A DNA stretch of 64,000 bases from a bacterium (GTDB lineage Bacteria > Zhuqueibacterota > Zhuqueibacteria > Residuimicrobiales > Krinioviventaceae): NCBI GenBank assembly GCA_029561455.1, contig JAKQIY010000006.1:1-64000 (forward strand). The letters are read 5' to 3'. Below, piece after piece: positions 4,424 through 30,779 of the stretch (positions within the stretch are counted from its first letter, which is position 1; each line of letters opens with the position of its first letter). The notes beneath the pieces were generated by a model that had not been told where the DNA came from, made no database searches, and saw only the letters and a program-made list of their open reading frames with translations. Both the position numbers and the translations under genes were made by a program.

Positions 4424-6247
4424 TCAATCACGATCATGGTTAAGATACTCTTCAAGGGCGTCGATAATGGCAGCGGCGCAGCGGCGCGGGTATTTTTTGG
4501 ACATTATCAACATTTCTTCATCAGGGTGCATCATAAACGCCGGTTCCACCAGAATGGCCGGCATTGGCGTGGGCCGGCACATCGCCAGGTTATCATAAAA
4601 CAAGCCGAAATCCGGCAACTTGAATTCCTGCAACAGTTTCTTTTGCACCAGTCGCGCCAGTTCATAGCTTTGCGGATGAAAATAATAGGTACTGGTTCCC
4701 CTGCTTTTAAACGGATTTACGCCATCGGGGATCGCATTATGATGCAAGCTGATGAGGAAATCCGGATTAAGCGCCTCCACCAGGCGTTTGCGTCCTGCCA
4801 GGGATATGCCATCCTGTTCATGGGTGTAAAAGACAAAAGCGCCTTTTTTCCGTAATTGTTCACCCAGCTCTCTGGCCAAAACCAAATTGGCGTCTTTTTC
4901 CAGAGTACCGGTCGGGCCGACCGCGCCTTTGTCCGGAGTATGACCCGGATCGAGTACGATAAATAGATTTTTCAAATGCGAAGCGAACCAGCCGGATTTA
5001 CCGGGCGCTTTTTTAATATCCAGTTCAAAATGTTTCTGTTCATTAAAACGGGCCTGGTATCCCCATTGCCGCTTTTGCTGTAAATGGATAGTTAACACAT
5101 ATACTTCGGGCGACTCTTGATTCCAGACAATTTCCCTAATGAGCGGATCACCGCTATCATACCTGATCCAGTCCGTATCTGAAACCACTCCATAAAACCA
5201 CACCCGCATGGTTTGAGTGGTAATATCTTGCTCCACCCGGAACGGTACTTGAACGCCGGTATAAACGCTCACGCGTGTAAAACGCGAAAATGCGCGGGTA
5301 CGAACTGCGGAGACAATGACCTGCGGGGGTTCAGTTCCTGCCGGTAACTGCCGGACACTGGCGGATTGCACCCAGGCTTCTTCGGTTGGCGATAGCCGCG
5401 CCCGTAAATACTCGCCTTTTTGTCCGGTTATCCATAACCTGGTGCCGCGCGGCAGAAAATAATAATAACCGGTATTCCTGGCGGTACGCAGCACGGTTTC
5501 TTCCGGTGTTAGTTCCACCAGGTTGGGAACACGCGCGTCGATCATGTCGACGCTTCCCGGCGCTGTAGAAGTAACAATCTCGTCATTCCTGCCCAGTTGC
5601 ATTATGATCCGGGCATTGCGACAGCTATCGCCAGTTTGCAGCACATAACTGCCGGTATACAAACCGCCGGTTTTATCGGTTAGCGGCGGCCAGGCTTTGC
5701 CAAATACAATTTCACCATAGTAAAGGTCAGATTCCGGGGGCGTTTCACTCATCGGAATCGGCTCTTTTATTCCTTCCACAAAACAAACAGCGGTACAGCC
5801 GGGCGTACCCCGGAAAGCAACCCGCAGCAGATCGCCGGGCAACAGCCGGTATGTGATATTGGGGCGTTCCGAACCGGCGACAATTTGCAGACTGTCGTCC
5901 GGTGGGGTTGTTGCCGGCGGTGGAATAAAAACGTGGCGCAGAGTTAGCGCCGTATCCTGTTCACTTACTACGCGACATTCAAATGTAAAATTACCGGGGT
6001 CTATCGGCAGCCAGGCAAGGAAAGCGCCATTCCGGTAAACCGGCACGGCATGACCGTTAATGCTCAGGGCGGCGTCGGCGGGAGATACCTGACCGAAAAC
6101 AAACGTGGAATCACGGGACGCTGCATTAAGGGTATCGCCCTCTTTGGGGTACACAACATTTATTTTTACAGCGCCAGCAAAAGTATCAATAGAGACCAGC
6201 AGCGCCGTGATACAAACATATTTAAAAATTTTGTTCATTCTCATCAC
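4424..6247 (-). CDS. N-acetylmuramoyl-L-alanine amidase (Amidase_3), exported
   Basis: This 607-residue periplasmic cell-wall hydrolase is predicted to cleave the bond between N-acetylmuramic acid and L-alanine in peptidoglycan. It has an N-terminal signal peptide (about residues 1-25). A long beta-rich region of some 400 residues follows, likely Ig/SH3-like (one part reads GTRLWITGQKGEYLRARL) and AMIN-like. The catalytic domain is at the C terminus. Visible zinc ligands are His436 in DPGHT, Glu450 in GTLEKDAN and His502 in SLHHNA; VEPAFM supplies the catalytic Glu. The length exceeds most AmiC-type enzymes because of the N-terminal region. No strong Shine-Dalgarno precedes any of the three clustered ATGs, so the exact start is uncertain by up to three codons. 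Confidence 0.9.
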   Translation of the reverse strand: MMRMNKIFKYVCITALLVSIDTFAGAVKINVVYPKEGDTLNAASRDSTFVFGQVSPADAALSINGHAVPVYRNGAFLAWLPIDPGNFTFECRVVSEQDTALTLRHVFIPPPATTPPDDSLQIVAGSERPNITYRLLPGDLLRVAFRGTPGCTAVCFVEGIKEPIPMSETPPESDLYYGEIVFGKAWPPLTDKTGGLYTGSYVLQTGDSCRNARIIMQLGRNDEIVTSTAPGSVDMIDARVPNLVELTPEETVLRTARNTGYYYFLPRGTRLWITGQKGEYLRARLSPTEEAWVQSASVRQLPAGTEPPQVIVSAVRTRAFSRFTRVSVYTGVQVPFRVEQDITTQTMRVWFYGVVSDTDWIRYDSGDPLIREIVWNQESPEVYVLTIHLQQKRQWGYQARFNEQKHFELDIKKAPGKSGWFASHLKNLFIVLDPGHTPDKGAVGPTGTLEKDANLVLARELGEQLRKKGAFVFYTHEQDGISLAGRKRLVEALNPDFLISLHHNAIPDGVNPFKSRGTSTYYFHPQSYELARLVQKKLLQEFKLPDFGLFYDNLAMCRPTPMPAILVEPAFMMHPDEEMLIMSKKYPRRCAAAIIDALEEYLNHDRD

Positions 6248-6299: not shown

Positions 6300-7019
6300 C
6301 TAATTTTTTACCCTGGCAATAAAAATATCCTCCAGGGTCGCACCGTTGCCATAATGCTGATACAGGTTAGTTATGCTGTCATCGGCGACTAGTCGGCCCT
6401 TGTTAATCATAACCACACGGGAACATAATTTCTCCACAGTTTCAAGGATATGCGAGGAAAATACAATTGTAGTTCCCTGACCGTGCAATTTGACCAGCAG
6501 TTTTTTCAGGGAAAAGATAATTTCCGGATCGAGTCCGCCGGTAGGTTCGTCAAGCAGCAACAACAGCGGTTCGGCAAGGAGGGCGGCGGCAATTGCGATC
6601 TTTTTCTTCATGCCGTGCGAATAATCGGCAATCAGTTCTGCAGCTTTATCCTGCAGGGCAAATTCTTGCATCAAGTCTGCGATTCTGTCTCCGAGATTTT
6701 TTCCATTCATGCCGCGCATTCGCCCGGTAAACTGCAGGTATTCGTAACCGGTTAAATAATCGTATAGAACCGGCGGTTCGGGAGAATATCCGGTCAATTG
6801 CCGGGTTTCAACCGGTTTTTCCCAAATATTCATTCCATTAATAGCTATCGCGCCGGATTCCGGTCGAACCAGTCCCATCAGCGCTTTCAGCAGGGTCGTC
6901 TTACCGGCGCCATTCGGGCCGATCAGGCCGATAAATTCACCCTTGTCGATATGCAAACTCAGATCATCAAGGGCGCGCACGGTATCATAATCTTTACACA
7001 GATTTTTTATATCAATCAT
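6300..7019 (-). CDS. ABC transporter ATP-binding protein
   Basis: This is the 239-residue ATPase subunit of an ABC exporter-type system. Walker A is GPNGAGKT, the signature region is YSHGMKKKIAIAAALLA, Walker B is LLLLLDEPTGGLD, and a switch His lies in FSSHI. The overall pattern matches the CcmA/drug-and-peptide export group that pairs with an ABC-2-like permease. The start is set at the ATG at 7019, which has GGAG upstream; it overlaps the stop of the permease gene by 8 bp, so the two subunits are coupled. The substrate is not evident. Confidence 0.92.
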   Translation of the reverse strand: MIDIKNLCKDYDTVRALDDLSLHIDKGEFIGLIGPNGAGKTTLLKALMGLVRPESGAIAINGMNIWEKPVETRQLTGYSPEPPVLYDYLTGYEYLQFTGRMRGMNGKNLGDRIADLMQEFALQDKAAELIADYSHGMKKKIAIAAALLAEPLLLLLDEPTGGLDPEIIFSLKKLLVKLHGQGTTIVFSSHILETVEKLCSRVVMINKGRLVADDSITNLYQHYGNGATLEDIFIARVKN

Positions 7020-8409
7020 TGATGATCTCCACATTATTTATGCGTTTTAAAACCAAAAAAATCGCGCCGTAACCGAACAGTAAAAAACCAATGGTAATGA
7101 GCGGTGAGAGCAGCACCGTAAAAAAAGCCACGGCCAGGATTAAATACAAATTATACCATAAAACCGCGTACCGGGGATAAGGATAGGAATACAAGGCAAA
7201 ATTAGTCTGCATAAAGATAAGTGTAAAAGCAATAAACAATATTGCCGTGATGCTTTCATAAAGCGCCAATTCTGTAAAACCGAATTTGAGTATAAAGATT
7301 ATTGTTCCTGCAATGACCAGCCACACCACCGGTAAAAATGCCTGCCAGAACTTGGCCCACCAATAGGTAACAGGTTTTATCGGCAGGGAACGAATAATAG
7401 CTAAACTTTCCGCACGCTGGTCGACAAAACGAAAAGCGGCATTGGCAAGTATCCAGGCGGCGGCGATGTTGATTGATAAAAACCACTGGATGCCGTCATG
7501 AGCTTGAGAGGATTTGGCAATACCAATGACCAGTATAATCAGCAGGGCAAGAAAGATCATTATAAAAGATTTGTAATTACGGAAAGTAAAAGTGCAATCC
7601 TTAACAACCAGGGCAACCAGACGGCGGGGAGTCGGCAAAGTGAAGATCTGTAATAATAACTTGCTGGTCAGGAGTCTGGCTTTGGCCTGTTGCGGCGCTA
7701 AACGTTCCGGGCATTTTGCCACGGTTGCGGTTAAAATACGCAAACCTGTATAAACGGCAATAATGGTCAACGTCGGCAACACCAGGGCATACAGCCATTG
7801 CCAGTTTATTGTTTGAATGTGCCCGGCCAGGATCACAGTAAATAACAATACCGCGGCCATGACAACGACAATAAACAGATCGGTTAACTTGTGCGGCAAC
7901 CTGAGAACGATAAATAACAACAAGCCCGTAAACACTGCAAAGAAATACCATCCCGTAAGAGCAAAGGCCAACAATACAAAACTGCCGGGCGTTAGCGCGG
8001 CATAGCGTGCAAACAGAAAATATAATGCCAGCCATAGCGGATAAAAGAGCGCCAGGGGTAAAACCAGATCGAGGAGCCGCTCGCTGGCTAATATCTTTCC
8101 GGGAACAGGCAAAGCCAGTAAAATATCATTTGCCCTGGTGCGCAGCCGCTTGCCGGCCATAGTAAAAGCAGTTACCGGCAGAAAAAGTATAAAAAAGCGG
8201 CAAAACAGCACAAACTTTTGCCACACTTCCACCTGGCCTTTGATTTTTAACGTCCAACTGAATTCACGATTCCAGGCAAACAAGCAATAAAACAACAGAA
8301 AACCAAAGAACAATACGATCTCGATACGGGTCACCAGGTCGAGACGTTTTAATACATAATTTTTCACAACCCTGGTATAACGCCATAAAAAAGTTAATAA
8401 ACAATTCAT
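7012..8409 (-). CDS. ABC transporter permease, large multi-pass membrane protein
   Basis: This very hydrophobic protein of about 465 residues has some ten membrane segments. It lies directly upstream of and overlaps an ABC ATPase gene, so it is read as the partner permease. An early segment is IEIVLFFGFLLFYCLFAW and the last ones are ILAVAFFTVLLSPLITIGF and FLLFGYGAIFLVL. A soluble patch around residues 230-270 (KCPERLAPQQAKARL) separates two halves, as in putative ABC-2 exporters of unknown substrate. The start is uncertain: the ATG at 8409 is chosen, but a longer frame opens at 8478, and neither has a clear ribosome binding site. Confidence 0.78.
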   Translation of the reverse strand: MNCLLTFLWRYTRVVKNYVLKRLDLVTRIEIVLFFGFLLFYCLFAWNREFSWTLKIKGQVEVWQKFVLFCRFFILFLPVTAFTMAGKRLRTRANDILLALPVPGKILASERLLDLVLPLALFYPLWLALYFLFARYAALTPGSFVLLAFALTGWYFFAVFTGLLLFIVLRLPHKLTDLFIVVVMAAVLLFTVILAGHIQTINWQWLYALVLPTLTIIAVYTGLRILTATVAKCPERLAPQQAKARLLTSKLLLQIFTLPTPRRLVALVVKDCTFTFRNYKSFIMIFLALLIILVIGIAKSSQAHDGIQWFLSINIAAAWILANAAFRFVDQRAESLAIIRSLPIKPVTYWWAKFWQAFLPVVWLVIAGTIIFILKFGFTELALYESITAILFIAFTLIFMQTNFALYSYPYPRYAVLWYNLYLILAVAFFTVLLSPLITIGFLLFGYGAIFLVLKRINNVEIIND

Positions 8410-26665: not shown

Positions 26666-26849
26666 AATTGCCTCCTGTTTATTGTTCACAAATACACCTG
26701 AATTAATCATTAAATGATCTCGTTTTGAACCGGTTCGGCAAAGTAAAACAATTTTTTCATATAGTCAATACTTAATATTCATGCTATTAGCAGAATAATC
26801 ATTTAAAAATCATAATTACTGAAAAAAAATTCAATTGAATTGAGAGGAT

Positions 26850-26877
26850 TTGACAATTCAAACCCACTTTATATGTG
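26850..26877 (+). promoter_or_regulatory. Possible promoter of the leader/hairpin transcript
   Basis: TTGACA at 26850-26855 is followed 16 bp later by TATGTG at 26872-26877. A TATAAT also occurs at 26887-26892 but lacks a matching -35. One of these could start the transcript that carries the 17-codon ORF and hairpins. Confidence 0.4.
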
Positions 26878-26926
26878 TAATTGATTTATAATATGTGCTA
26901 TTTACAGATAAAGGGGGAGGTGTTTT

Positions 26927-26980
26927 GTGGGAAATGCCTTATTACAGGGGGTAGTGTTAGTGTTACCTTCCTGCACATGA
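26927..26980 (+). CDS. Putative 17-codon leader peptide or small hydrophobic peptide
   Basis: A GTG-initiated frame encodes MGNALLQGVVLVLPSCT and stops at TGA. The Shine-Dalgarno is exceptionally strong: AAGGGGGAGG ends 6 nt before the GTG. The product is rich in Leu and Val. Its stop codon lies inside the left arm of a perfect terminator-like hairpin at 26976-27012, the arrangement expected of a transcription-attenuation leader. No branched-chain amino acid gene follows; the next gene starts 720 bp downstream. It could instead be a small membrane-active peptide. Coding status rests on ribosome binding site and context only. Confidence 0.45.
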   Translation: MGNALLQGVVLVLPSCT

Positions 26981-27012
26981 CGGGCATATACTCTGCCCGT
27001 CATGATTTTTCT
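26976..27012 (+). terminator. Terminator-like hairpin overlapping the small ORF stop codon
   Basis: A perfect 11-bp stem (26976-26986 with 26994-27004) with a 7-nt loop is followed by ATTTTTCTT on the plus strand. It is the first of four consecutive hairpins. Confidence 0.75.
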
Positions 27013-27153
27013 TCAATACTTAAGGGGGGGAGGTGAACATTCACCTCAAGTATTGAAAAAAATGAACAGGAAAAAAATGCAGTTGTGAGAATAACGAAAA
27101 TTTATTCTCAAAGCCGCAAAAGACTGGCCGGGGCCTGCCAGTCTTTTTTTTTT
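27012..27153 (+). ncRNA. Three further tandem hairpins ending in a strong terminator (candidate structured RNA)
   Basis: The second hairpin pairs 27012-27021 with 27048-27057 and contains an inner 6-bp AGGTGA/TCACCT stem (27031-27036 with 27041-27046); the segment 27024-27030 is a run of seven G. The third pairs 27086-27094 with 27102-27110. The fourth pairs 27118-27128 with 27137-27147 and is followed by an unbroken T run to 27153. Four perfect hairpins within 175 bp, all with the polarity of the plus strand, suggest a short structured transcript. No known riboswitch or small-RNA family was recognised. Confidence 0.5.
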
Positions 27154-27293
27154 ATCAATTCCCCTTCCTGCTCTTGATCCCGTTTTAAAATTGCCAGTCT
27201 ATTATCATTTAAAACTCTGCTGATTTAACGGGTAAAAAAACCGCAAAATCTTAAAATTCATTTTATCCTATCTCCTATTTATTCAAGCAGGTA

Positions 27294-27325
27294 CGCAAAA
27301 TTTGCACACCTACGCAAATTTTGCG
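27294..27325 (+). promoter_or_regulatory. 12-bp inverted repeat, candidate activator site
   Basis: CGCAAAATTTGC at 27294-27305 is repeated as its exact reverse complement GCAAATTTTGCG at 27314-27325, with an 8-nt spacer. Each arm is itself nearly palindromic. It lies 80-111 bp upstream of a sigma54-type element, the usual place for an enhancer-binding protein. Confidence 0.55.
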
Positions 27326-27701: not shown

Positions 27702-30700
27702 ATGCGTAAAGTATTTATCATTACAATAGCAGTGTTATTATTGTGCGTTTGGTCATTAACTGCAACAGCATCGACTTTTCCCCGCCAGTTAATGAATCAA
27801 CAACCAGGGCAAATGTACCAGGTACAAAAGAACTTACACCGTATACATACAGATTCTGCTCATCAACTGTCCCCTCTAACACACTCCCCTGCTTTTACCG
27901 GCAAAGATACGGAATTTGGGGGAATCAGTGGCATAATATATGGTTTGTCCGACAAGGATTATCTTTTTGCCTGGGTTGAAGCCTGGACAGAAAAAACCGA
28001 TCCGGGCAACGCCGATAGCATTAATTATTCTTATTACAGCAGTAGTGTTGATTCAAATGGATTTTATGAAATAGCTGGAATTACCCCGGGCTATTATTAC
28101 GTGGCGGCTTTTGCTGAGGGTTATGAATATAGCTACTATGATAATACTACCGATCAAAGCCAGGCCAAGCTTGTTGAAGTATTTACAGAACAGATTACAG
28201 AAAATATCAACATTACTTTACACAAGTATATGCCCGGAAACGGCGTAATGACCGGAGTTGTCTCCAGCCTGAAAGACGGCGCCCCGGTAGCGAATGCCTA
28301 TATTTCAGCGTATTCGCCAAGTCAACCCTGGTGCAATAGCGCCATTTCCAATGAAGCGGGTGAATATACTATCACCGGTTTGCATAGCAATAATTATATT
28401 GTGCAAGTTTGGGCGGATGGTTATCTGGAACAATATTATGATCAGAAATCCAACTGGCTCGATGCCGATTCCGTGTATGTTGCAGATTCGACAACGGTGA
28501 GCGGGATTAATTTTACACTTACTAAAGCCGGTTCTATTTGCGGTACTGTATCTGATGAAGAGGGTAAACCCATTGCCGGCGCTTTCTTATATGCCCACTA
28601 TTATGGAGATTCAACATGGAATGACTGGACTAGATCAGATTTCTTCGGTAATGGGTATTCCGATGAAAATGGTAATTATATAATAAACAACCTTCCCACC
28701 GGACAATACGCTGTTCATGTGGAAGTTTGGTCGGAATGGACCTGGGCGGAAGAATGGTATGATAATAAAACTAAAACGGAATTCGCCGACCCGGTAACCG
28801 TTGTTGAGGGAATTGCAACAACCGGTATCAATTTTGTACTCCCCTTTTACAAGCCGGATGGAGTAATATTCGGCCATTTATCGGACGCCGATGGTCAACC
28901 GATCGCCGATGCCTGGATTACCGCTCAACCGGTCGATTACGCAAATCCAGCCTATGGGTATACAACATCTGATAAAGACGGAAATTATAATATCCCCTCG
29001 CTGCCGGATGGTTTCTATTACGTTTCTGCCGGAGCGCAAAGCGGCTGGCAATATATTAACCGTTGGTGGCCCGATTCCGAAACATTTGACGGCGCACAAG
29101 CAGTTGAAGTCAATGGGAATGTAGAGCCGGTTTCTATAGACTTTACATTACCGCTTGTTATTGGTACGGCATCAATCTCCGGGCATGTTCAGGGAATAAA
29201 CGGACGTCCTCTGCATGGCGCCAGCATCAGTATTGGGCCAGCGAATTCTACCGATCCTTCAATCCAGGCGATTTCTACGGTCTGGGCGTGGGCTTCAACA
29301 GACAGTAATGGTAACTATTCGGTGGGCCGCTTGCCGGAAGGTAATTATATTGCCCAGGCTAACTATTGGGAAAATGGAAGTTTTGGACAACAATGGTGGG
29401 ATCACCAGGAACAACAGGAAACCGCAACCGTTATTACCCTGGCAAAAAATCAAAACAAAACCGATATAGATTTTTCACTTAATGTTAAACCAATTTATGG
29501 TTCAATTACCGGCGTGATTATCGATTCACTAACAGGATTGCCGGTTGAACGCGCTTTTATTGAAATTGCAACTGTGTATGATGAGAGTTGGAGTAATATT
29601 GGTTATAACTATTGGAATAACATGTCGGCAATTACTGATAAAAATGGCGCCTTTAGTATTGATTGGCTGTATGAAGGCAATTACCTGGTTTCAGTTTATG
29701 CAAACGGCGCTTTTGAATATTATAATAATGCCCCGGTCGTGGATTTAGCTACTCCTGTACCGGTTACCGGCGGAGAAAAGACTGAAATTCAGTGTGCATT
29801 AACACAACGCCGCGATGGTGATGGAGAAATTACCGGCCGGGTCGTTTCGGAGGGAGATAAATATCCTTTTGATATTGCCATAGTAACTGCCAAACCGGTT
29901 GTTTCCATACAACAATGGCCGCAATCGGAACTGTTTTATACAGCCGTAACCGATTCACTGGGCTACTTTACTCTTGCAGGCCTACCCACCGGAACAGGAT
30001 TCTATATTTATGCCTTTGCCAATTGGGGTGTGGGTGAATATTATAATAATGTCTATGATCCTGCCCAGGCTACACTGGTAACAACAAATGGCGTATCCCC
30101 GACTTTACTCGAAGATATTGAACTGCCGATGTACCGCTGGTACGATTGGGATATGGAAAACGGCGGCGCATTAACGCCGGGAAACGCCCAGGTAGTTGGA
30201 ACGGTAAGCGATGCTTCCGGCAATGCCATAATTGGCGGCCGTATTTTAGTGTTTAATGAAGCGTCACAAGCGATAGCATCAGTACAAACACGATTGGGTG
30301 GCGCTTATGAGATTGGCGGTTTGGCTCCTGGCAAGTACATACTGCAAGCCTCCCATCCGGGTTATAATTCGGCATTCAACGGCAATGTCGCAACTGCAGG
30401 CCAGGCGCAGATGATCGTTCTGGGAAATGGCACTTTACAGGTCGATTTCATCCTGTCATCAGCCACCGGCATTAAACCGAAAGATCCCGCAGCATTGCCG
30501 GATAAATTAACTTTGCTGGGCAATTACCCCAACCCGTTCAATCCCGAAACCAGGATCGTATTTGCCCTGCCGAAAAGGCAGCATATTCAATTAAGCATTT
30601 ATAATCTGGCCGGAGAATTGGTTACAACGCTGATTTCCGCCGCTTATGAACCGGGCGAACACCAAATTGTATGGAACGGTCGCGATGCCGCGGGTAGAGC

Positions 30701-30779
30701 AGTGAGCAGTGGTGTTTATATGTATCAGCTTGAAAGTGAAAATACCCGGTTAAACGGCAAGATGGTTTTGATGAAATAA
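27702..30779 (+). CDS. Large secreted protein of carboxypeptidase-regulatory-like repeats with sorting domain
   Basis: This 1025-residue exported protein has a signal peptide (residues 1-24) and about nine tandem beta-sandwich repeats of the carboxypeptidase-regulatory/Cna-B type. These are recognisable from phrases such as GEYTITGLHSNNYIVQVWA, GNYIINNLPTGQYAVHVEVW and GAYEIGGLAPGKYILQASH. The C terminus is a type IX-like sorting domain (LLGNYPNPFNPETRIVFALP, VSSGVYMYQL). Trp and Tyr are abundant (EYYNN, QYYDQ motifs), as in carbohydrate-binding surfaces. Function is unknown; a stalk-like surface adhesin is plausible. AGGAG lies 7 nt before the ATG. The upstream region holds a sigma54-like element, and a strong terminator follows. 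Confidence 0.87.
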   Translation: MRKVFIITIAVLLLCVWSLTATASTFPRQLMNQQPGQMYQVQKNLHRIHTDSAHQLSPLTHSPAFTGKDTEFGGISGIIYGLSDKDYLFAWVEAWTEKTDPGNADSINYSYYSSSVDSNGFYEIAGITPGYYYVAAFAEGYEYSYYDNTTDQSQAKLVEVFTEQITENINITLHKYMPGNGVMTGVVSSLKDGAPVANAYISAYSPSQPWCNSAISNEAGEYTITGLHSNNYIVQVWADGYLEQYYDQKSNWLDADSVYVADSTTVSGINFTLTKAGSICGTVSDEEGKPIAGAFLYAHYYGDSTWNDWTRSDFFGNGYSDENGNYIINNLPTGQYAVHVEVWSEWTWAEEWYDNKTKTEFADPVTVVEGIATTGINFVLPFYKPDGVIFGHLSDADGQPIADAWITAQPVDYANPAYGYTTSDKDGNYNIPSLPDGFYYVSAGAQSGWQYINRWWPDSETFDGAQAVEVNGNVEPVSIDFTLPLVIGTASISGHVQGINGRPLHGASISIGPANSTDPSIQAISTVWAWASTDSNGNYSVGRLPEGNYIAQANYWENGSFGQQWWDHQEQQETATVITLAKNQNKTDIDFSLNVKPIYGSITGVIIDSLTGLPVERAFIEIATVYDESWSNIGYNYWNNMSAITDKNGAFSIDWLYEGNYLVSVYANGAFEYYNNAPVVDLATPVPVTGGEKTEIQCALTQRRDGDGEITGRVVSEGDKYPFDIAIVTAKPVVSIQQWPQSELFYTAVTDSLGYFTLAGLPTGTGFYIYAFANWGVGEYYNNVYDPAQATLVTTNGVSPTLLEDIELPMYRWYDWDMENGGALTPGNAQVVGTVSDASGNAIIGGRILVFNEASQAIASVQTRLGGAYEIGGLAPGKYILQASHPGYNSAFNGNVATAGQAQMIVLGNGTLQVDFILSSATGIKPKDPAALPDKLTLLGNYPNPFNPETRIVFALPKRQHIQLSIYNLAGELVTTLISAAYEPGEHQIVWNGRDAAGRAVSSGVYMYQLESENTRLNGKMVLMK

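Follow-up and report, generated by a model that had tools for sequence, protein, structure and literature searches.

The structured intergenic locus at 26880-27153 of the window (the whole 64,000-nt stretch of DNA analyzed here, from G000, the genome of an uncultured KSB1-type bacterium) probably encodes a free-standing small RNA of about 270 nt that belongs to the regulon of a stress-type, ECF-like sigma factor, was relocated in this genome and acts in trans through runs of G. The evidence comprises the sequence itself, its predicted fold, compensatory changes in a homologue from the sole other genome of the genus, a shared promoter motif, and the adjacency of such RNAs to the sigma gene in relatives. 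Features of the locus, all on the forward strand, are as follows.

26841-26873, +, promoter motif TGAGAG-N18-CACTTTATA, the sole match in the window, putatively read by the ECF-like sigma factor
26880-27153, +, candidate small RNA gene, with the 5' end placed from the promoter and the 3' end from the terminator T-run
26913-26917, +, G-run 1 (GGGGG), with its equivalent in the sister genome at L012 1206-1210
26927-26937, +, GTGGGAAATGC, outside the hairpins, the longest block identical with the sister genome in the alignment
26927-26980, +, 17-codon GTG micro-ORF, judged not to be a gene; the sister-genome frame stops after 4 codons
26947-26951, +, G-run 2 (GGGGG), with a G-run in the sister genome also
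26976-27010, +, hairpin 1 and its T-run, conserved and terminator-like in a terminator scan, with 2 pairs changed on both sides in the sister genome
about 27005-27063, +, hairpin 2, with an outer A/U-rich stem, a G7 bulge at 27024-27030 and an inner stem
27078-27118, +, hairpin 3, variable between genomes, with a 9-bp perfect core
27118-27153, +, hairpin 4, an intrinsic terminator with an 11-bp stem (27118-27147), GGGG in the loop and a T10 tail

Layout and fold of the locus

Direct reading of the sequence placed the Shine-Dalgarno-like sequence, the 17-codon GTG ORF and the four hairpins where the initial annotation had put them: AAAGGGGGAGG ends at 26920 and is followed by the spacer TGTTTT and the GTG at 26927, and the micro-ORF, whose product would be MGNALLQGVVLVLPSCT, ends in a TGA (26978-26980) within hairpin 1. 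The description of all four hairpins as perfect held for hairpins 1 and 4, which are perfect 11-bp stems (hairpin 1 spans 26976-27004 and is followed by ATTTTTC), but is slightly overstated for hairpin 3, which is perfect only in its 9-bp core and has imperfect flanks. Hairpin 2, which does contain the reported nested stem and run of seven G, has a stem in two parts, with a single bulged C, an asymmetric 8-nt bulge bearing GGGGGGG, and an inner 7-bp stem. The long T run noted behind the last hairpin is a T10 at 27144-27153, and together with hairpin 4 it forms a good intrinsic terminator. Hairpin 1 with its T-run is terminator-like in both genomes of the genus, and the T-run serves at the same time as hairpin 2's 5' arm; this arrangement suggests that hairpin 1, as an early stop, could yield short and long forms of the RNA. 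The same intergenic region also holds a perfect 12-bp inverted repeat, CGCAAAATTTGC...GCAAATTTTGCG (27294-27325), possibly an operator.

The structure of the locus is well above chance. The minimum free energy of 26890-27160 was -97 kcal/mol, compared with -65 ± 4.6 kcal/mol in 200 dinucleotide shuffles (z about -7), none of which was as low, and three runs of five or more G were observed where 0.16 were expected from base composition. In the RNA, hairpins present G-runs of 4-7 nt as loops, bulges or single-stranded segments, although in the predicted folds the G-runs are partly paired in the sister-genome RNA and run 2 is partly paired in the window RNA. No C-run is present in the window RNA except for one CCC, which lies in a stem. 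An intramolecular G-quadruplex was unsupported, as the gquad option left the predicted fold unchanged, a result that applies to forms other than long-loop or intermolecular ones. Searches of Rfam 15 returned no covariance-model match at the gathering score for the window RNA or for the G-run RNAs of two relatives described below (L119 of G005 and L122 of G004), and only sub-threshold noise for L009 and L012, in agreement with the earlier remark that no described family with this layout was known.

The sister-genome homologue and the leader and peptide readings

The sister genome (G001) is the candidate division KSB1 MAG JAFGSB010000161.1. A DNA search of 99 related genomes yielded one true relative of the window RNA, locus L012 in G001; the remaining matches in relatives included many A-rich chance matches, and all were rejected on reading. 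A covariance model built from the window alone also recovered the homologue (53.9 bits, E 7.2e-11, per genome). In the two-genome alignment 6 of 34 pairs are changed on both sides, and 97% of cells are paired, compared with 40-47% when the partner is slid by 1-3 columns; the inner stem of hairpin 2 has three compensatory pairs. This covariation extends over hairpin 1 as well as the two parts of hairpin 2, but is modest, as it comes from two sequences in an alignment fitted to the structure. Also kept in G001 are the G-runs (G5, G5, G6 and G6), the block GTGGGAAATGC, hairpin 1 with the T-run behind it, and a terminator-like end, which there carries GGGGGG in its loop. The designation of the locus as a structured RNA in the initial annotation is supported by this homologue and its compensatory changes.

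Homology of the RNA at the sequence level rests on these two genomes, G000 and G001, and covariance searches of 147 genomes, of the family and of the order gave no match beyond the genus. The pattern GGGG-N-TGGGAAATGC was found outside the genus at a frequency attributed to chance, since its matches were single and control patterns were similarly frequent. In scans of viral contigs, the three-part pattern had no match and the hairpin-2 pattern had six, all unrelated.

The genes around the RNA differ between the two genomes. In the window its neighbors are a Gfo/Idh/MocA oxidoreductase gene and, downstream, the gene of a carboxypeptidase-regulatory-like secreted protein, so that, as first noted, no biosynthetic gene follows; no clear orthologue of this downstream gene was found in G001. 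(A search of G001 with window 27702-30779 returned more than 150 stretches, which mostly match the downstream protein in its C-terminal sorting domain, and points to a large set of secreted proteins.) In G001 the RNA lies between the sigma-like gene and pfkA, its own terminator-like hairpin ending 450 bp before pfkA, and no such RNA precedes the pfkA orthologue of G000 (on C68, 81% identity). The different flanking genes and the absence of the RNA before the G000 pfkA argue against a gene-specific leader and towards a free-standing RNA.

These observations bear on the initial proposal of a transcription attenuator or leader peptide for the downstream gene. The Shine-Dalgarno-like sequence and the short ORF overlapping a terminator-like hairpin are what such a leader would show, but the G001 frame aligned to the micro-ORF reads GTG GGA AAT GCG TAG and stops after four codons. 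Neither a conserved leader ORF with control codons nor a conserved biosynthetic or transport gene directly downstream was found, and with its own terminator and an unconserved context, the RNA is already at odds with an attenuator, which we regard as hardly tenable. The same four-codon frame leaves little room for the suggested branched-chain sensing or type I toxin peptide, since no short hydrophobic peptide is conserved in G001, and both the attenuator and the toxin readings were rejected on conservation.

A small peptide gene with a structured mRNA could also use another frame, and one that starts at GTG26920 in the window and at ATG1212 in G001 begins MF-GKC in both genomes (MFCGKC... and MFGGKC...). 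The likeness is however limited to the first six codons (five of six residues), after which the frames diverge to lengths of 38 and 16; the G-run lies just 1-2 nt ahead of the start, and no equivalent frame was noticed on a non-systematic look at the RNAs of G004 and G005. A peptide gene, whether toxin-like or in this frame, is very unlikely. Equally little credence is given to non-functional palindromes left by a mobile element or repeat: the several inverted repeats of the intergenic region and the different location of the RNA in the sister genome would fit such a remnant, but the RNA is present as one copy per genome in both G000 and G001, carries compensatory changes and shares a promoter.

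Promoter motif, sigma-like gene and G-run RNAs in relatives

A search of the window's own genome returned a 39-nt match (E 0.003) to the region directly upstream of the RNA at C68:43886-43924, which overlaps the stop codon of a gene for a 217-aa sigma-like protein and lies upstream of an operon encoding a TPR-CHAT protein. Aligned upstream regions gave the consensus TGARAG, exactly 18 nt, CWCTNNWTW. The window contains one match where 0.01 were expected, and in 1.27 Mb of G000 (22%) there are exactly two with the 18-nt spacing, one before the RNA and one after the sigma-like gene, compared with 0 or 1 for each other spacing from 14 to 22. Across the 560 kb examined, the motif precedes the RNA in both G000 and G001 and the G-run RNAs in G004 and G005, overlaps the stop codon of the sigma-like gene in G000 and G009, and has one further match (L104), with no match to the reversed pattern; the motif was derived from the loci that it describes, and the G009 match alone is independent. 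A near match in G013, TTGAGAG-N18-CTCTAATATAG (L117, about 7067-7173, divergent from the sigma homologue), precedes a short terminator-like hairpin without G-runs. The loci concerned, in addition to those of the window, are as follows.

C68:43241-43891 (G000), ECF-sigma-like gene, 217 aa
L122 about 6160-6042 (G004), -, G-run RNA
L119 about 6537-6628 (G005), +, G-run RNA

Assignment of the 217-aa protein to the ECF sigma factors is tentative and drawn from sequence comparison. The gene is single-copy in both G000 and G001, and its G001 orthologue (49% identity) adjoins the RNA. Six of 13 aligned homologues match TIGR02937 (sigma70-ECF), the best at 7.9e-5, which is below the curated cut-off, as is the 217-aa protein itself (0.12). 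PDB profile matches were weak, and several of these were ECF sigma factors (E 0.1-0.3); a structure predicted from one truncated sequence had a mean pLDDT of 55 and gave no usable match.

In G000 and G005 the sigma-like gene is followed by genes for three proteins of about 130, 370 and 1100 aa, the last being a TPR-CHAT protein (CHAT E 4.5e-60 and 2e-58, respectively, with TPRs), and ORFs of similar size and order stand behind it in G008 and G024. The G000 operon (L100 3242-9221, corresponding to C68:43241-49220) is a look-alike of the sigma/TPR-CHAT arrangement of CASP, with the CRISPR part not evident. Between the genes of the ~370-aa and TPR-CHAT proteins lies one for a small membrane protein that contains eleven consecutive prolines, and hence C-rich codons (L100 about 5545-5732). 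Near the sigma homologue of G024, a cluster of CCCCTTTGAAGGGGG-like repeats (L124 4870-4945) looks like an interspersed repeat and not like the RNA.

Upstream of the sigma homologue in G004 and G005, the opposite strand carries, directly behind the promoter motif, a short RNA-like stretch that has a terminator and three or four runs of 5-7 G; two clear hairpins of the G004 stretch hold these G-runs in their loops. The similar divergent stretch of G003, from which the motif is absent, is probably also a G-run RNA. By reading, in all three (G003-G005) the 3' strand of the first stem is immediately preceded by a G-run. No such RNA was found upstream of the sigma homologue in G006 or G008. The covariance model does not detect the G003-G005 RNAs, and we infer their kinship with the window RNA from where they lie, from the promoter and from the G-runs. 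Beyond the G005 RNA lie genes for a GIY-YIG protein, a 240-aa protein and a STAS protein, look-alikes of which were seen by eye in G001 and G004, and the position of the RNA thus appears conserved among these three genomes. An RNA is accordingly found at or near the sigma locus in G001, G004, G005 and probably G003, and away from it in G000. That the G000 RNA lies apart from the sigma locus yet has kept the promoter is the best evidence that the promoter matters.

Proposed action and comparison with known systems

On the favored reading, the RNA would be transcribed from the promoter at 26841-26873 by the ECF-like sigma factor whose gene lies at C68:43241-43891, elsewhere in the genome, the transcript would end at the intrinsic terminator (27118-27153), and its G-runs would base-pair in trans with C-rich stretches of target RNAs, the gene having been relocated from the sigma locus in G000; for the window RNA we infer that it is transcribed, that this depends on the sigma factor and that it acts by pairing. 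Within the sigma operon no conserved C-rich target was found, as C5 runs are present in two (G000 and G005) of the four genomes that have both RNA and operon and absent from the other two (G003 and G004).

The same sigma-driven RNA might instead be bound by a protein, either a CsrA-type regulator through GGA within the G-runs or a G-tract binder, or occupy ribosomes by mimicking a Shine-Dalgarno sequence; this is considered rather unlikely. CsrA is encoded in the genome, and the window RNA is, like CsrB, RsmY and RsmZ, a free-standing RNA of several hairpins with purine-rich unpaired motifs. Its motif is however G5-7 in place of the many ANGGA that those RNAs carry in hairpin loops: ANGGA is absent from both the window and the G001 RNA, and their four and three GGA, respectively, are too few by comparison with CsrB and RsmZ. 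As for ribosomes, the G-runs of the window include GGAGGTG, a good anti-Shine-Dalgarno match, but the G001 RNA has not kept its GGAGG core.

In its layout, the putative sigma-regulon sRNA resembles GsrN of Caulobacter, an ECF-driven sRNA whose homologues mostly lie close to the ECF sigma locus, which has been relocated in C. crescentus, and whose C-rich loop meets G-rich leaders (PMC5869019). The likeness to GsrN and the EcfG-regulated sRNAs of Alphaproteobacteria lies in the putative ECF-sigma promoter, the position of the gene beside or close to the sigma locus in most species with relocation in one, and the predicted exposure of a homopolymer-like seed. The window RNA comes from another phylum, however, with no sequence relation claimed; it has G-runs and no C-rich 5' loop, and the sigma gene is tied to a TPR-CHAT operon and not to PhyR/NepR. 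Hairpins exposing homopolymer-like seeds are likewise shared with sX13 of Xanthomonas and the S. aureus and H. pylori sRNAs cited with it, whose C-rich loops act on G-rich sites near translation starts (PMC3771888), but with opposite polarity, as the G-runs of the window would need C-rich partners. The RNA appears to be a new, lineage-specific counterpart of the regulatory RNAs that sigma factors drive in model bacteria, with an earlier description beyond the open-licence literature being possible.

In CASP, an RNA-activated TPR-CHAT protease (Csx29) cleaves the inhibitor (Csx30) of an ECF sigma factor (CASP-sigma), and matches to the sigma promoter are found in the system's own locus (PMC10028731). 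The loci described here similarly encode an ECF-type sigma factor with a TPR-CHAT protein and further function-unassigned proteins, with matches to the putative sigma promoter in their own locus, but no CRISPR part was noticed near them by reading (as opposed to systematic search), and a link between RNA and protease is hypothetical. It is quite improbable, though conceivable, that the RNA is part of a CRISPR-free sigma/TPR-CHAT stress or defense circuit and feeds back on the TPR-CHAT protein or a sigma inhibitor; the sigma factor would make the RNA, which would bind the protein or the operon mRNA, and the RNA would then control sigma release as in CASP, without a CRISPR effector.

Such a sigma-regulon sRNA would connect a structured RNA with a named regulator, and with a sigma/TPR-CHAT operon, in a phylum that is uncultured and has no transcriptome. 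Where the familiar seed loops are C-rich, this RNA has their mirror image, G-runs, and the question arises of what a G-run sRNA pairs with.
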